A model generated the notes under the pieces. The model ran no database searches. It was not told where the DNA came from and saw only the letters and a list, made by a program, of their open reading frames with translations. The translations under genes were made by a program, and so were the position numbers. 24,211 bases of DNA, taken from a virus. How positions within the stretch are numbered: the first letter of the stretch is position 1; each line of letters begins with the position of its first letter. The stretch lies in IMG/VR virus record IMGVR_UViG_3300044993_000091, positions 1-24,211 of that record, one strand, 5' to 3'. Shown one piece after another: positions 10,269 to 23,056 of this stretch.

Positions 10269-10292
10269 TTTATTTTTTAACTTCTAACTTAG

Positions 10293-10363
10293 CAGACAAG
10301 GTAGGACTTGAACCTACACCAACGACTTTGGAGGTCGTTATGCTGTCTTTACACCACTTGCCC
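10293..10363 (-). tRNA. trnW: tRNA-Trp (anticodon CCA)
   Basis: The 71-base minus-strand gene folds as a full cloverleaf. The acceptor is GGGCAAG/CTTGTCT (two G-U pairs), the D stem GTGT/GCAT, the anticodon stem ACGAC/GTCGT with loop CTCCAAA (anticodon CCA, reads UGG), the T stem GTAGG/CCTAC with loop TTCAAGT, and the discriminator is G73 as expected for bacterial tRNA-Trp. The 3' CCA is not encoded. Oddities: the D loop AAAGACA has no GG pair, which normally docks to the T loop. The D stem has a U11-A24 pair, the pair created by the Hirsh UGA-suppressor change in E. coli tRNA-Trp, though it is also natural in some bacteria. It lies in a small-gene operon between the genes at 10526 and 10268. 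Confidence 0.9.
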
Positions 10364-15854: not shown

Positions 15855-16172
15855 TTAACTTTTATAATATTCCCCATCGTTCCAGACGTACTTTGCGTTT
15901 TTTATATCCTCCTCGCTTGGTTTTATTCCTTTCGTGCCGTATTGTTCCAAATATTCTTTTGATAATACTCCGTCTCTGTATGGTTGGATTATGTCTTTTT
16001 TGTATACCTTTCTTGCTTCTTTTATTTGCTCGCTTGTGAACTCAACCTGCCGTTTTGGTTTTGGTATCTTTCTTGCTTCCTCTTGACAACTTTTGCACGG
16101 CAAATAACCGAAATTTTCCGAAAATTCCGCTTTTTCCTTTCCACAGATTATGCACAATTTATCATTTTTCAT
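15855..16172 (-). CDS. Zinc-ribbon protein (105 aa)
   Basis: The first 30 residues contain C-I-I-C and C-K-S-C (about residues 7-10 and 26-29), a classic zinc ribbon as in small DksA/TraR- or HNH-associated proteins. A basic linker (RKIPKPKRQVEF) and a helical C-terminal domain with EQIKEARKVYKKDIIQPYRD follow. The ATG overlaps the end of groEL by 11 bases, so it belongs to the chaperonin operon. No catalytic motif is seen. DNA- or RNA-polymerase binding is possible but not shown. Confidence 0.75.
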   Translation of the reverse strand: MKNDKLCIICGKEKAEFSENFGYLPCKSCQEEARKIPKPKRQVEFTSEQIKEARKVYKKDIIQPYRDGVLSKEYLEQYGTKGIKPSEEDIKNAKYVWNDGEYYKS

Positions 16173-17736
16173 CTTTTGGACGATTGGGAACGATTAAAGC
16201 GTTTGTCGTTATAAGTTGTATGGCCACACTTACCGCATTTTTTATTGCCTGAATTGGGACGGCCACCGGATCTATTATTCCTGCTTTTATCATATCCTTA
16301 ACTTTACCGTCAATAACGTCTATTCCGTAGTTTTTCTTTATTTTTTTCATATCAATTTCTAATCCTGATAAATCTATCCCGGCGTTTTTGATAAGAAGCT
16401 GAAATGGCTCCTCTAAGACATCGTATAAGATAGGATTGTCAAAGATTTTATCCCGGACTTGAAGGTAGGATATCTCACCACCGGGAACTATTCCGTTTAA
16501 CATTGCCATTCTTGTTGCCGCGACAGCATCAAGAACTCTCTCTTTTCTTTCCTTCATTTCAATTTCCGTTTGTCCGCCTACCTTTATTAAGGCGACTCCA
16601 TTTGATAGTTTGGCCAGCCTTTCCCTCATTTTCTCACGATTGTATTCGGATGTTTCCGGGTCGTTTATTTGCTGTCTTAGATAGTTTACCCTTGCTTCAA
16701 TTGTATCTTTTGCCGATTTTTTTCCAACGATAATCGTTGCGTTTTTTGTTGATTTTACATATTCAGCTATTCCTATATCCTCAATTTTTACGTCTCTGAG
16801 GCTTCGTCCGGCTTCTTTTGATACCAACCTCCCGCCGGTTACAATGGATATATCCTCCAAGATTGCTCGCTGATATTCTCCAAATGATGGCGCTTGAACA
16901 CATAATGTAACGAATATGTTTTGAAGTTTTGAAGCAACAAGAGAAGGTAGCGCATCACCGCCGAAGTCCGGCGCGATTATTACCAGTTGCTTTGACCTTT
17001 GAGCATATTCTTTTTCAATGAACTCAGCCAGTTCCATTATGTTTGTCACCGGTATATCTGTTACCAAAACTCCTACATTCTGATGTGTTGCCGTCATCGT
17101 TTGTGGATCGGTTATGAAATATGGCGAGAAATAACCTTTGTCTATCTGCATACCTTCTTGGTGCTCAACGACCGTCTCCGTTCCTTTTGACTCCTCAACG
17201 GTCACCACTCCGTCCTTGCCGACTGTTTTTAGAGTTTTTGCGATTAACTCTCCCAATTCCTCATCCTCTGCCGATATTGTTGCTACTTGCTTTATCTCCT
17301 CGTATGTTTTTATCGGCATTGCTATTTTTTGTAGCTCGTTTGTTAGTTTTTTTGCTCCTTCCTCAAAGGTTTTCCGAAGCGCCATTGGGTTATCTCCTTT
17401 TTTTATTCTTTTTAGGCTTTCGTTTATAATGCTTTTTGCCAGAACTATAACGGCCGTTGTTCCGTCACCTACCTCATCCACTTGTTTTTGCGCCGCCTGA
17501 CGAAGAATTGCTGCTCCTAAATTTTCAAATTCATCTTCCGGATCAACAAACTTTGCGACAGTTACCCCATCGTGAACAACTACTCGCTCGTAGATTTCAC
17601 CTTTTGGATCTGCTTTTGCGATTGCTACATTTCGTCCTCTTGGTCCTAAAGTTGTTCCAACCGCCTTTGCGACCAGATTAACTCCCCTGTAAATTTTCTC
17701 TCGTGCCTCATCATCAAAGATTATTTGAGTCCTCAT
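16162..17736 (-). CDS. groEL: Chaperonin GroEL (phage-encoded)
   Basis: At 524 residues it is near full length (E. coli has 548). The ATP site is conserved: GTTLGPRGRNV at 27-37 and GDGTT at 90-94. The apical region EGMQIDKGYFSPYFITDP is recognisable, and the later nucleotide-binding DAVAATRMAMLNGIVPGGE region is present with GGE in place of the usual GGG. The C-terminal Gly-Gly-Met tail is missing; the protein ends RPKDEK. It overlaps groES by 23 bases, as an operon. Phage GroEL probably folds capsid or other virion proteins. The stop UGA is followed immediately by UAA. Confidence 0.96.
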   Translation of the reverse strand: MRTQIIFDDEAREKIYRGVNLVAKAVGTTLGPRGRNVAIAKADPKGEIYERVVVHDGVTVAKFVDPEDEFENLGAAILRQAAQKQVDEVGDGTTAVIVLAKSIINESLKRIKKGDNPMALRKTFEEGAKKLTNELQKIAMPIKTYEEIKQVATISAEDEELGELIAKTLKTVGKDGVVTVEESKGTETVVEHQEGMQIDKGYFSPYFITDPQTMTATHQNVGVLVTDIPVTNIMELAEFIEKEYAQRSKQLVIIAPDFGGDALPSLVASKLQNIFVTLCVQAPSFGEYQRAILEDISIVTGGRLVSKEAGRSLRDVKIEDIGIAEYVKSTKNATIIVGKKSAKDTIEARVNYLRQQINDPETSEYNREKMRERLAKLSNGVALIKVGGQTEIEMKERKERVLDAVAATRMAMLNGIVPGGEISYLQVRDKIFDNPILYDVLEEPFQLLIKNAGIDLSGLEIDMKKIKKNYGIDVIDGKVKDMIKAGIIDPVAVPIQAIKNAVSVAIQLITTNALIVPNRPKDEK

Positions 17737-18025
17737 ATTTTCCTAAAATATTGCCAAATTTTAACAACCGGTATTCATCAAAGTTTATTTTTACCGTCTC
17801 ATATCCTATTGATGCGTGGAGGATTACATCACCCGGCTTATATTCTGTTGTGTAGGGTTTGCCGTTAAACTCCCCAATTGTTGGTTTTCCAACAGCGATA
17901 ATTTTTGCTTTTCGTGCCGTTTTTTCCTCCTGTTTTATTACAAGTGATGTAGCTTTATCTTCCGCCTCCATTGGTTTGGCGAGAATGTATCCCGGAGCCG
18001 GTGTTAGTGGTACTTTACCAGACAT
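17714..18025 (-). CDS. groES: Co-chaperonin GroES (phage-encoded)
   Basis: At 103 residues it is of family length, with PLTPAPGYILAKPMEAEDKA for the first strand and mobile loop region, GDVILHASIGYETVKINFDE for the roof and core, and YRLLKFGNILGKYE at the end. The mobile-loop tripeptide that touches GroEL appears as LVI (TSLVIKQEEK) where many bacteria have I-V-L after two glycines, which may reflect co-evolution with the adjacent phage GroEL. Its end runs over the groEL start, with three UGA codons in a row closing the frame. The preceding basic gene overlaps its start by 11 bases. Confidence 0.94.
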   Translation of the reverse strand: MSGKVPLTPAPGYILAKPMEAEDKATSLVIKQEEKTARKAKIIAVGKPTIGEFNGKPYTTEYKPGDVILHASIGYETVKINFDEYRLLKFGNILGKYEDSNNL

Positions 18026-19288: not shown

Positions 19289-19692
19289 TTTTCCTTCACC
19301 TCCTTCCCTTTGGCAAGTCTTACTGCCACGTACTCGCTTTCTTTTGCCTCCAGCCCTTCAAGTTTTCTCCCGTCCTCAATAAGTTTTTTGAAGGTTAGGC
19401 TCATATAGTCGGCGAATACTTCTTTTGTGCCGTATGGGATGTTGTTTTTTTCAAGCTCTGCCTTTAAGGTTTCAAAATCAGTCACCTCCGGCGTCACTTT
19501 CTTGACCCTTGATATAGTGTAGTCTTCTGTTTTTAGAGTGACTACTCCCAGTTTTTTGGTTATCTCAAGCAGTTCCGCCTTTAGCTGATCTATTTCCGGC
19601 TTGATTTGTTTGTATAAAGCCTGGAGTTCCATCAGCCTTTTTGCTTTCGCAATCGCGGTTCTTGGCGACTTTGAGACGGTTATGTTATCCAT
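19285..19692 (-). CDS. Coiled-coil protein of the recombination operon (135 aa)
   Basis: I take the ATG at 19692 (MDNITVSKSPRTAIAKAKRL), which has an excellent GGAGGGAGGTGA ribosome site and overlaps the previous stop as ATGGATAA. Residues of about 10-50 are a coiled coil (LMELQALYKQIKPEIDQLKA). A compact alpha-beta domain with VVTLKTEDYTISRVKKVTPE follows, an arrangement seen in small phage proteins that sit next to single-strand annealing proteins (Siphovirus Gp157-like in character). The Gp157 comparison is tentative. Ends in UGA within the next start. Confidence 0.75.
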   Translation of the reverse strand: MDNITVSKSPRTAIAKAKRLMELQALYKQIKPEIDQLKAELLEITKKLGVVTLKTEDYTISRVKKVTPEVTDFETLKAELEKNNIPYGTKEVFADYMSLTFKKLIEDGRKLEGLEAKESEYVAVRLAKGKEVKEK

Positions 19693-20482
19693 TATTTTCA
19701 CCTCCCTCCTTTTTTTCCTCCGGTTTTTGAAGCTCTGAGGCCAGTTTGAATGTTCCAGGCTTGACTTTGAATGCCGCCTCAATTATCCGGCTCGCTTCTT
19801 TTTTTGAGATCTCGGTATAATCCTTATTTTCTATTCTCCCTTGAGCGATGAAATTTGTAATGAGTTTCAGTTGCGGAAAGGTTATCTTATCCGGCGATTC
19901 GCTCGGTTTTGTGACTTTAACTTCGGATCTAACCTCCGTTTGATTGCTTTCCGGAAGCTCCGGTTCCCGATGAGACTCAACCATTTTTTGCTCAACTATC
20001 TCCTCATCCTGGCTGAAGTAGTCAGATATGCCGAGCGAATTTATGACCGCATCAACCTTTGATCGTTTTTCGGCCAGTTTTACTGCGGTGTTTTCGTCTC
20101 TATCCATATGAAGTCCCCCGACACCCCGTCCTTCACCTATGATTTTTCCTTTTGGGTCATATATCTCACACTTCAAGCAGACGATTCCCGGACGTCGTCC
20201 GAACATTTCCCAGACCTCATCATCCCTGACCCATTTTGATCTTAATTTGAAGATTTTCAGAAGTTTTTCGGCTCCGGGCTTAAATAGGATGTCTTTGCTT
20301 TCAAAGACTTGTCCGGTGGTTTTACTTTTTACTTTGATTTTCCCATAATCCGCTCCTTCTTTTAGCTCGGATCGGACGTAATTTTTAATTATTTCACGAT
20401 ACTCTTTCTCATAGGCTATCCCTCTTCTTATTACATCAAGTTGATTGCCTTTTGTTATGGCCGTCCCCTTTTTGTTTTCCAT
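19685..20482 (-). CDS. Probable phage single-strand annealing / recombination protein
   Basis: This 265-residue protein begins MENKKGTAITKGNQLDVIRR. The core has LKEGADYGKI (about 40-49), LFKPGAEKLLKIFKL (66-80) and NTAVKLAEKRSKVDAVINSL (130-150). These mark a widespread group of phage recombination-module proteins that resemble annealing proteins. A linker rich in Glu/Pro follows, then a small C-terminal domain with FPQLKLITNFIAQGRIENKD and KKEASRIIEAAF, the K-K-E-A-S-x-x-I pattern found at the end of ERF- and Rad52-like phage proteins. It is first in its operon behind a strong promoter. I am fairly sure of the module, less of the exact family. Confidence 0.72.
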   Translation of the reverse strand: MENKKGTAITKGNQLDVIRRGIAYEKEYREIIKNYVRSELKEGADYGKIKVKSKTTGQVFESKDILFKPGAEKLLKIFKLRSKWVRDDEVWEMFGRRPGIVCLKCEIYDPKGKIIGEGRGVGGLHMDRDENTAVKLAEKRSKVDAVINSLGISDYFSQDEEIVEQKMVESHREPELPESNQTEVRSEVKVTKPSESPDKITFPQLKLITNFIAQGRIENKDYTEISKKEASRIIEAAFKVKPGTFKLASELQKPEEKKEGGENNG

Positions 20483-20514: not shown

Positions 20515-20544
20515 ATTTTATAACACCTTATTATAGTTTGTCAA
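20515..20544 (-). promoter_or_regulatory. Promoter TTGACA-18-TAAAAT ahead of the recombination operon
   Basis: TTGACA (20544-20539) and TAAAAT (20520-20515) with an 18-base spacer containing AATAAGGTGTT. It shares TTGACAAACT and most of the spacer with the promoter at 13214-13243. The leader to the ATG at 20482 carries GTTAAAAATT. Confidence 0.82.
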
Positions 20545-20866
20545 GCGTATTTTTATTTTAAGGCTATTTTGCGGTTGCGGAATAAGTCAACTAGGGGTTC
20601 CCGAACAGGACGATTTTTTTAACCGGCCGCCGGTTTTATGTACATTAAGGTCATTTTTCCTTTTTTTCCTTTACGAAGGTCTTTTTTTCTTAGTCTATCC
20701 CCAGACCCCGACGTCCTCGTTGGATAAATCTTGGAAGAATAGATCTCTCATTTCTCCGATTTCTCTCGGATGAGATAAGCTTACCACCTGTCCCAAACCG
20801 ATGCTGTCGCTTCGGAAGGCGTGAGGCGTGGTACGACACCTTTCTCACCGCACATTTTCCGGCAAA

Positions 20867-21103
20867 TCATCCCCTGCCCGTTAGTCCCGCCGGCTGACTA
20901 TTGCTCTCCTCGTTTTTTAAGGTTGTTCCGTCCAACCCGGTGGGAGAGACCCCGTCAGTAGAGTCTTGGTCACCGTAACCTGTTAGGTTATTTTCTTTGT
21001 GTTTGTTTAGTTTTTTTAATGCGAACATATTGTAAATAACCGGAGCGTTTTTTTTAAGAAGTTGCCGAATGTAGATTATCTTTTTTTTTGTTTGATCGTC
21101 CAT
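20867..21103 (-). CDS. Doubtful small protein (78 aa) within the candidate RNA
   Basis: The ATG at 21103 follows an inverted repeat (AATTCAAT-T-ATTGAATT) and opens a frame starting MDDQTKKKIIYIRQLLKKNA. The first 40 residues are Lys-rich and use codons like neighbouring genes. The second half (GYGDQDSTDGVSPTGLDG and so on) is low in hydrophobics and coincides with the GC-rich, paired region. It ends in UGA, and the same frame stays open for 60 more sense codons to a TAA near 20684. It may be a real gene with a structured mRNA, or a chance frame in a noncoding RNA. No Shine-Dalgarno. Confidence 0.35.
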   Translation of the reverse strand: MDDQTKKKIIYIRQLLKKNAPVIYNMFALKKLNKHKENNLTGYGDQDSTDGVSPTGLDGTTLKNEESNSQPAGLTGRG

Positions 21104-21120
21104 AATTCAATAATTGAATT
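21104..21120. promoter_or_regulatory. 8+8 inverted repeat overlapping a possible start
   Basis: AATTCAAT and ATTGAATT flank one central base, directly before the ATG at 21103 and about 30 bases after the -10 box. It could be an operator for a dimeric repressor or the tip of an RNA stem. Confidence 0.45.
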
Positions 21121-21151
21121 GATCTACTCGCCGTCCCCAATATTTAACAGT

Positions 21152-21177
21152 ATTATAAATTTTTTTCCTTTTGTCAA
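21152..21177 (-). promoter_or_regulatory. Promoter-like TTGACA with TATAAT/TAATAC
   Basis: TTGACA at 21177-21172 is perfect. TATAAT lies at 21157-21152 with only 14 bases between (TAATAC would give 16). The same short spacing occurs in the capsid promoter at 4308-4333. It begins immediately after the TAG at 21180 and would transcribe the candidate RNA. Confidence 0.5.
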
Positions 21178-21179
21178 GT

Positions 21180-21506
21180 CTAAATTTTACTTTTGATTAC
21201 ATACCCCAAATATTCTATCACTTTTACCATTCCATTTTCATCTCTAAACGGAGCGTTATTATCATTCTCTGGAACGATATTTTCGTTATCATACCGAACA
21301 TACTGGTATCTTTCCTTCGGCTTCATTTTGGCCAGACCAAGTGCCGTTTGAAAGACTGTCGCAAAGATTTCCTCTGGTAGTTGCTCACCTTCATTTGCCT
21401 CGTGGTATTCAATTAACGGTATTTTTCCGTTTTTGAATTGGTTTATCTCAACAAAAGATTTAGACCCACGATGCCAAGTAAATCTTAGATTTTTTGGTAT
21501 TTCCAT
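21180..21506 (-). CDS. Unknown protein following the tail fibre (108 aa)
   Basis: It begins MEIPKNLRFTWHRGSKSFVE and has a mixed alpha-beta composition with IPLIEYHEANEGEQLPEEIF and a C-terminal VKVIEYLGYVIKSKI strand region. There are no cysteines or membrane segments. Its ATG overlaps the TAA that closes the frame beyond the fibre UGA (TAATG). That is an operon-style junction placed exactly where the full-length fibre would end, and it supports the idea that the longer fibre is the ancestral form. It may be a fibre chaperone or accessory by position. No family recognised. Confidence 0.7.
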   Translation of the reverse strand: MEIPKNLRFTWHRGSKSFVEINQFKNGKIPLIEYHEANEGEQLPEEIFATVFQTALGLAKMKPKERYQYVRYDNENIVPENDNNAPFRDENGMVKVIEYLGYVIKSKI

Positions 21507-21811
21507 TATCTACTTAATGATTTTAACTTCAAAGAAAAGAAATCAATTCTCAAATCTCTTGCTGTTGTTGATGTTGGAATAATTTGAAAGAATGGGTGAA
21601 GCCCAGTTGACGACGAAGGAATGTTTGTTGTGAGAGTCGCTTCTGAACCACCATCTACTTGAAATCCTATTGTTGATGAGTTTATTGCTCTTATTCTAAA
21701 TGTGTGAAAATTAGTATCCTGCGATAAAAGAGAAGAAGTTATTGTTTGAGAGGAAGATGCTCTTGTTAAACCATAAAAAATGTTATCGGTATTGAGTCTT
21801 TGAAAATATAA
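21506..21811 (-). other. In-frame continuation of the tail fibre after UGA (101 codons)
   Basis: Directly after the UGA at 21814-21812 the same frame continues for 101 sense codons to TAA at 21508-21506. The sequence starts LYFQRLNTDNIFYGLTRASS, has TNFHTFRIRAINSSTIGFQV and ends FFSLKLKSLSR. It reads as the second half of a beta-sandwich (lectin/LamG-like) domain whose first half is the end of the upstream frame. The UGA falls in PPAN-x-LYF, where related phage proteins commonly have Gly or another residue before an I/V/L-Y-F strand, and where Trp would also fit. GGA or TGG is one base from TGA. Whether it is translated by readthrough is unknown. Confidence 0.75.
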
Positions 21812-23056
21812 TCAGTTAGCTGGTGGATTTGATGAAACATTATCGGATAGACCAAATTTAACTGAAAAATCTGTGCCAGTTGTAACTAAGGAAACAGAGA
21901 AATAAACAGTATCAAACTCACTCTTCAAAAATGAAGGAGTTGAAGCAGAAGCGGATAAATACATATAAGCAACCTGATTAGCTGTTGTTCCGCTTCTTAA
22001 TGTAATAACTCCTGGTCTATTTGCTGATGAAGATGTTGCCACGATTGAACCATTAGCAAATGACCAACCCAACTCCCCTATCTCTCCAGTTTCGGTAGAT
22101 TGTGCGAAAAAATCATCATAAATAATAGGTGCTGTTGATGGAAGTGTCGGGTCTGAACCACCCGCAACTTCCCAGCTTACATTTGTACCGTTTGTAGTTA
22201 AGAATTTACCAGCATTGCCAGACTGACTTGGTAATACTTGGTTAGCAGTAACATTGTGAGGATTTGAAGTATTGTTGATATGACTATCTAAATCTGATTG
22301 ATTTGCTTTGAGATTAAGTGCCGTTTGGGTAGCGGTTGAGATTGGTTTATCTAAATCGGAAGTATTATCTACATTTTCCAACCCTAAATCTGCTTTTGTG
22401 ACATTATGAGGATTTCCTGATGTCAGTTGTGAGTGGTCGTATGCTACTTTCCCTCTATCACCCCTATAAGCAGTTGACGAGGTTTCACCTAATGCTAAAC
22501 TCGGTGATATTTCAACATAAGTAGTTCCCGACCAACGATAACTTAAATTTGTATCAAGAGCAATGTATATTTTTCCAGTCTCTCCTGTTTCAGGAAAAGA
22601 TGATAAATCATCATACTCCAAAACATCGTCAACATAAGAAGGTAATTGAGACGATAAAATTTTTCCATTTTCATCAAGTTCTGCTACTCCATTTGCTGTT
22701 CCTTTTTGACTTAATGGTATTTGAGCATCATTGGTAACATTGCCAAGCCCTATTTGTGATTTTGTAACGTTGTGAGGATTGTCGGTTCTTACATCGTGAT
22801 CACCATCAGTTATCTTATCAAGTTCTATCTTATTAGAATGAGTATGAGATTGATTAATTGCAGTTTTTACTTCTAATGCGGTTGAAGTATTTGTTCCGTC
22901 TGATACAGTTTCGGAAGCATCAACTATTCCGTCATTATCCGTGTCATAAACGGATTTTGTCATATCACCACTACTGGGAATTATTCCTTCAATATCAGAG
23001 ACATTATGTTTATGCGATAATGGCTCACCTAATATTTTATCAACAGTTATTCCCAT
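21812..23056 (-). CDS. Tail fibre protein with NPHNVTK repeats, ended by a suspicious UGA
   Basis: The 414-codon frame starts MGITVDKILGEPLSHKHNVS. It carries repeated shaft motifs: DNPHNVTKSQIGLGNVTND, GNPHNVTKADLGLENVDNT and SNPHNVTANQVLP, the hallmark repeats of long tail fibres, with SHTHS-type His motifs that can bind iron in trimeric fibres. A YVDDVLEYDDLSSFPETGE segment (GKIYIALDTNLSYRWSG) is a common fibre insert. From about residue 300 a lectin-like domain begins (IIYDDFFAQSTETGEIGELG) but is cut in mid-domain by UGA. The coding potential continues to 21506 in the same frame. The start is one base after the MazG stop. Confidence 0.9.
   Translation of the reverse strand: MGITVDKILGEPLSHKHNVSDIEGIIPSSGDMTKSVYDTDNDGIVDASETVSDGTNTSTALEVKTAINQSHTHSNKIELDKITDGDHDVRTDNPHNVTKSQIGLGNVTNDAQIPLSQKGTANGVAELDENGKILSSQLPSYVDDVLEYDDLSSFPETGETGKIYIALDTNLSYRWSGTTYVEISPSLALGETSSTAYRGDRGKVAYDHSQLTSGNPHNVTKADLGLENVDNTSDLDKPISTATQTALNLKANQSDLDSHINNTSNPHNVTANQVLPSQSGNAGKFLTTNGTNVSWEVAGGSDPTLPSTAPIIYDDFFAQSTETGEIGELGWSFANGSIVATSSSANRPGVITLRSGTTANQVAYMYLSASASTPSFLKSEFDTVYFSVSLVTTGTDFSVKFGLSDNVSSNPPAN

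Follow-up and report, generated by a model that had tools for sequence, protein, structure and literature searches.

A candidate family of structured noncoding RNA carried by otherwise dissimilar phages

Phages can place structured RNAs ahead of their genes, as in the put-type antitermination RNAs. Only a few structured RNAs of unknown function have been described in phages, and the ones that have been studied, GOLLD and ROOL, have proved structurally surprising. GOLLD is often >800 nt long, occurs near tRNA islands, and is more conserved in its 3′ region than in its 5′ region (PMC12286853). ROOL, which is phage-encoded and pseudoknotted and has no known protein partner (PMC12286853), is distinguished by forming a homo-octameric RNA nanocage. 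Here, we describe an RNA of ~0.3 kb that joins GOLLD and ROOL by kind and that is, as far as tested, separate from both in sequence and fold. We class it as a new family of an established broad type (structured phage ncRNA); it is a member of no Rfam family tested.

The window, by which we mean the whole stretch of DNA analyzed, is a linear virus record of 24,211 bases, the minus strand of which holds large genes for tail-fiber-like, MazG-like, Gp157-like, and GroES-/GroEL-like proteins, a ParB/methyltransferase fusion, the terminase, and the portal protein. The terminase is 59%–67% identical to those of several uncultivated viral contigs and 38% identical to that of a TM7 phage. Given this relationship to candidate-phylum (TM7-type) phages, the host is likely, but not proven, to be a candidate-phylum bacterium. 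The RNA lies on the coding strand, after the tail fiber gene and a 108-aa gene, and is followed by a 265-aa gene (19685–20482, minus strand). The tail-fiber-like gene (21506–23056, minus strand) contains one in-frame TGA, giving a stop at ~21812; its SO2946-like C-terminal domain (PF22237, Pfam) is matched at full length with 39.1 bits if the TGA is read through and with 19 bits if truncated. The TGA may be a site of readthrough, the mark of a broken gene, or a sequencing error. The same phage carries a tRNA-Trp(cca) (10292–10363), the one tRNA identified in the window by ARAGORN/Rfam, 10 kb from the RNA. GroEL- and GroES-like chaperonins are encoded at 16162–18025 (minus strand), and GroEL relatives recur in several terminase-related phages.

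The initial annotation had singled out positions 20621–21150 as a GC-rich, densely paired region with promoters on both sides and had proposed it as a candidate new structured RNA. Composition and promoters are as it described. GC content is 0.54 in 200-base bins over 20700–20999, compared with 0.39 for the whole window, and promoter-like sites occur on the minus strand at 21177–21149 (TTGACA-17-AATACT, also readable as TTGACA-14-TATAAT; 10/12, a consensus match only) and at 20544–20515 (TTGACA-18-TAAAAT; 11/12), the latter being a separate site for the downstream 265-aa gene. Overall, eight promoter-like sites were observed where 2.6 were expected. As for the dense pairing, the complementary arms are present, but folding energy alone is weak evidence: the 530-nt region has z-scores of −1.97 (plus strand) and −2.25 (minus strand), with three of 100 shuffles doing as well on each, and a 301-nt piece holding the RNA has a nonsignificant z-score of −0.5. 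Because these energies are at best mildly better than those of shuffled sequences, energy is insufficient to establish the RNA, and the proof of it is comparative, not energetic. The probable extent on the minus strand, as supported by comparison, is ~20690–20966 (a 5′ pseudoknot domain, the core, and the start of a 3′ part), and the flanks at 20621–20689 and 20967–21150 are unsupported.

Homologs came to light through both sequence and structure. An nhmmer search with the minus strand against phages fetched by their terminases returned a single match, of 163 bases (E 3e-4), in a 41.7-kb phage (G016). By eye, the window and G016 share the strand TTGGRAYAGRTGGTRAGCTTA followed by a hairpin of the same geometry with a wholly different outer stem (TCTCAT CCGA GAGAAA TCGG AGAA ATGAGA in the window and AACGGT CAG AGAAAAAA CTG ATTT ACCGTT in G016). 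A covariance model made from the window alone (R1; 20740–20893, the core on which R1–R3 were all built) gave the copy in G016 57.4 bits (E 8e-14), compared with 18 bits for sequence-only nhmmer. It also turned up a third copy, in G065 (28 bits, E 8e-7), likewise a terminase relative. A motif scan of a viral collection followed by a three-sequence model (R2) added G465 (locus L319; 79 bits, E 5e-20) and G466 (L287; 56 bits, E 1e-13). These two matches, which like the others had no part in the models that detected them, are intergenic, in phages without terminase similarity to the window. The family thus has five known members, of which only the window, G016, and G065 have a recognizable terminase in common; otherwise, the phages share little. 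The terminase large subunit of G466 (L329, 10300–12525, minus strand) carries an intein splicing domain.

In the five-sequence alignment, 86% of cells are paired, and 16 of the 27 modeled pairs are changed on both sides and still paired. The covariation score is 0.652, falling to ≤0.152 when the 3′ partners are slid by one to three columns, and none of 500 shuffles reaches the observed values. It should be noted that the structure model was used in making the alignment, which holds only five sequences, and that the counts are therefore biased toward the structure. The homologs were, however, detected with models of earlier members, and one stem (hairpin b, below) reappears when single segments of G016, G065, and L287 are folded freely. 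G-U cells outnumber A-C cells (12 vs. 3), which identifies the minus strand of the window as the RNA. The initial annotation had held that a lack of covariation in homologs, or codon-level conservation without pairing, would speak against its candidate; with covarying helices in four other phage records and no Rfam family at the gathering score, the outcome favors an RNA. We regard the existence of a conserved, previously uncatalogued RNA structure as very nearly certain.

All features of the RNA described here lie on the minus strand. Its 5′ part was delimited by two comparisons made by hand, one between the window and G016 and the other between G065 and L287. An H-type pseudoknot is clear in L287 (ACCGAC/GTCGGT with CTTATGC/GCATAAG; 8 bp, a length reached by 12 of 2000 shuffled loops) and in G065 (ACCGAC/GTCGGT with CATAGA/TCTATG; 7 bp, reached by 28 of 2000). 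By analogy with these two, the window would form hairpin P1 (AGACTC/GGGTCT, 20947–20966), the loop of which (CTGAC, 20954–20958) may pair with GTCAG (20894–20898) as a pseudoknot, and a similar pseudoknot may form in G016. None was recognized in L319, where the 5′ part differs. Comparison with G016 also indicates a helix P2 (20904–20948), in which CTCTCC/GGAGAG encloses the hairpin GGTTG/CAACC (20921–20937); at this position, G016 pairs by different bases (GCAACA/TGTTGC around AGCC/GGCT). P2 is common to the window and G016 and is absent from G065 and L287. As it overlaps the 3′ arm of P1 by two bases, one of the two must be shorter than given.

The conserved core (20740–20893) is defined by the R1 matches in G016 and G065, the two members added by R2, and covariation. 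Comparison shows three hairpins in it, with stems that vary in sequence yet remain paired. In the window, the first element is hairpin a (GGCAGG [GGATGA] TTTGCC, 20861–20878), for which G016 shows compensatory changes (TCAAGG [GATAA] CCTTGA) and which L287 and L319 do not retain in this form. There follow a hairpin with a GTGC/GTAC stem (20831–20853; 95% of cells paired across the five members) and hairpin b (20793–20819), where invariant CCTT … TTGG flanks enclose a stem (20798–20815) that is different in each member, with six of seven pairs changed on both sides. The next element, aligned in all five members, is a near-invariant strand, TTTGGGACAGGTGGTAAGCTTA (20776–20797; family consensus TTGGRAYAGRTRGTNRGCTKA, or UUGGRAYAGRURGU.AGCUUA as RNA); the invariant TTGG and the strand GRAYAGRTRGTNRGCTKA sit within it (20797–20776), 5′ of hairpin c. 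Hairpin c (20746–20775) has a 6-bp outer stem, a 3–4-bp inner stem, a 4-nt 3′ bulge, and a conserved A-rich loop, AGARAAA. All six outer pairs are changed on both sides, the geometry in G016 being identical. Tentatively, the near-invariant strand may also form a long-range pairing with sequence that follows the pseudoknot (L287, 8 bp; G016, 6; L319, 5); in the window, no such pairing reaches 5 bp.

The family is rare and patchy. A further model, R3, found no additional members in 80 terminase-related viral records or in 33 further motif-selected loci, and none at E ≤ 0.01 in 380 genomes of Patescibacteria (the phylum of L180), a set with no positive control genome, so that its empty result is no proof of absence. 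Four weak R1 matches in those genomes (E 0.004–0.03) vanished with R2. Nor did R3 find the RNA in two named relatives, the TM7 phage MG269973 and MW202566. BLASTN of the region against annotated phages gave no match, and neither did the G016 copy against phages and plasmids. The flanking 265-aa protein, used as an anchor, had no relative in the viral contigs or terminase relatives. Several candidates were rejected. These include, on inspection, a gap in G016 that precedes its Gp157-like gene (L103, 1086–1592) and, of 41 stretches of viral contigs with the motif ACCAYGCC..GGTRAGCTTA, all except G016. In a group of matches at E 0.008–0.18, L314 and L291 fall in coding sequence, and L293 and L317 match at their ends without the helices and were judged to be chance; the stems of L362 and L364 (E 0.004–0.04) are mostly broken.

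Could the region be mainly a protein-coding gene, with the pairing incidental? A 78-codon open reading frame (20867–21103, minus strand) covers the 5′ half of the RNA, and its codon usage resembles that of the phage's short genes (z 3.4, vs. 0.9 and 0.4 for the other frames). It thus has to be treated as a possible small gene; a frame also ends at a similar place in G016. The frame is, however, limited to the 5′ side: it stops inside hairpin a, the conserved core runs 127 bases past that stop, and across the core there are stops in every reading frame in all five members. Its 78-aa product has no relatives in Pfam, PHROGs, or the phage collection, and the covariation of the core contradicts a coding-only reading, which we consider exceedingly improbable. 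The initial annotation had counted this overlap against the RNA; the frame is real as a frame, but it does not explain the conservation. There may be a small protein besides the RNA. Immediately before the start codon of the frame is a palindrome, AATTCAATTATTGAATT (21104–21120), that could be an operator. It is likewise very unlikely that the RNA is a highly divergent GOLLD, ROOL, or other catalogued large RNA. It does resemble GOLLD in being a phage or prophage RNA of obscure function with an elaborate fold that is more conserved toward its 3′ end, and ROOL in being phage-encoded and pseudoknotted with no known protein partner (PMC12286853). The membership in GOLLD or ROOL that the initial annotation had thought plausible nevertheless found no match, either in the window at E ≤ 5 or in the four further members when these were scanned permissively. 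Moreover, the RNA is much shorter than GOLLD and has a different core, and there is no adjacent tRNA island (no tRNA occurs in the stretches fetched for the remaining members). At the gathering score, Rfam recognizes only the tRNA-Trp in the window. Of three weak matches in a permissive scan, the best is RAGATH-25 (RF03050; 20598–20640, minus strand; 21.9 bits, E 0.0068, compared with a gathering score of 49), which lies just 3′ of the RNA, outside the conserved core, and was not seen in the other four members. A near-palindrome, AACCGGCGGCCGGTT (20621–20635), sits inside this match, between the RNA and the next promoter. Full-text searching of the papers available yielded no report that could be linked to the RNA; at the sequence level, novelty is judged against Rfam.

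The more serious question is whether the structure is a free RNA or part of an mRNA. In four of the five members (the window, G016, G065, and G465), it occupies an intergenic position on the coding strand, with genes downstream, so that it may be co-transcribed as part of an mRNA. In G016 and G065, the late region ends with what appear, from their sequences, to be lysis genes, and the RNA comes after these. The window, G016, and G065 yielded neither a terminator nor a clear 3′ end, nor was a terminator recognized after the RNA in G465. The structure might then be a cis-acting leader or intergenic element controlling the downstream genes (e.g., by put-like antitermination, or through processing or stability). 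We consider this unlikely, owing mostly to G466 (L287), where the RNA runs antisense to the genes on either side. There, a promoter-like TTGACA-N17-TATTAT ends 12 bases short of P1, and downstream comes a GC stem with ATTTTT after it, read by eye as terminator-like. This arrangement, in which the RNA also differs from put-type elements, indicates that it is probably a free-standing ncRNA and not the leader of a downstream gene, and favors action in trans over action in cis. In addition, the next gene in the window has its own promoter match, and the downstream genes differ from phage to phage. Three of the five phages have HNH-type nuclease genes near the RNA (L101, 8878–9498; L278, 4635–5171; L319, 1760–2293), on the basis of a PHROGs match for L319 (G465) and of sequence judgment for G016 and G065. 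Together with the patchy occurrence of the RNA in unrelated phages, they could suggest a catalytic or mobile (intron-like) RNA spread by these nucleases. We think this very improbable, as no intron or ribozyme family of Rfam matches, the RNA does not interrupt a gene, and no HNH gene was seen adjoining it in the window or in G466. Intron-like and tRNA-like readings are both unsupported by ARAGORN or Rfam.

The reading that we prefer, and hold to be more likely than not, is that phages encode a new family of ncRNA here, free-standing, structured, and ~0.3 kb long, which would act in trans, as inferred from the arrangement in G466. A promoter of its own, close to where the tail and lysis genes end, would drive transcription of the RNA, which would fold into a compact body that holds out the invariant strand and the A-rich loop AGARAAA. 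These may contact a partner, either a host factor or another RNA, during infection. In its fullest form, the proposal would be of a wholly new class of trans-acting phage RNA in uncultivated (at least partly candidate-phylum) hosts, moving between otherwise dissimilar phages, with the invariant strand and A-rich loop shown to a host component so as to aid infection; for this, we judge the chances to be evenly balanced. The family combines clear covariation with a size small enough for in vitro synthesis, probing, and structure solution. It is carried by phages of poorly known hosts, and with the covariance model and motif in hand, its further spread is directly searchable.
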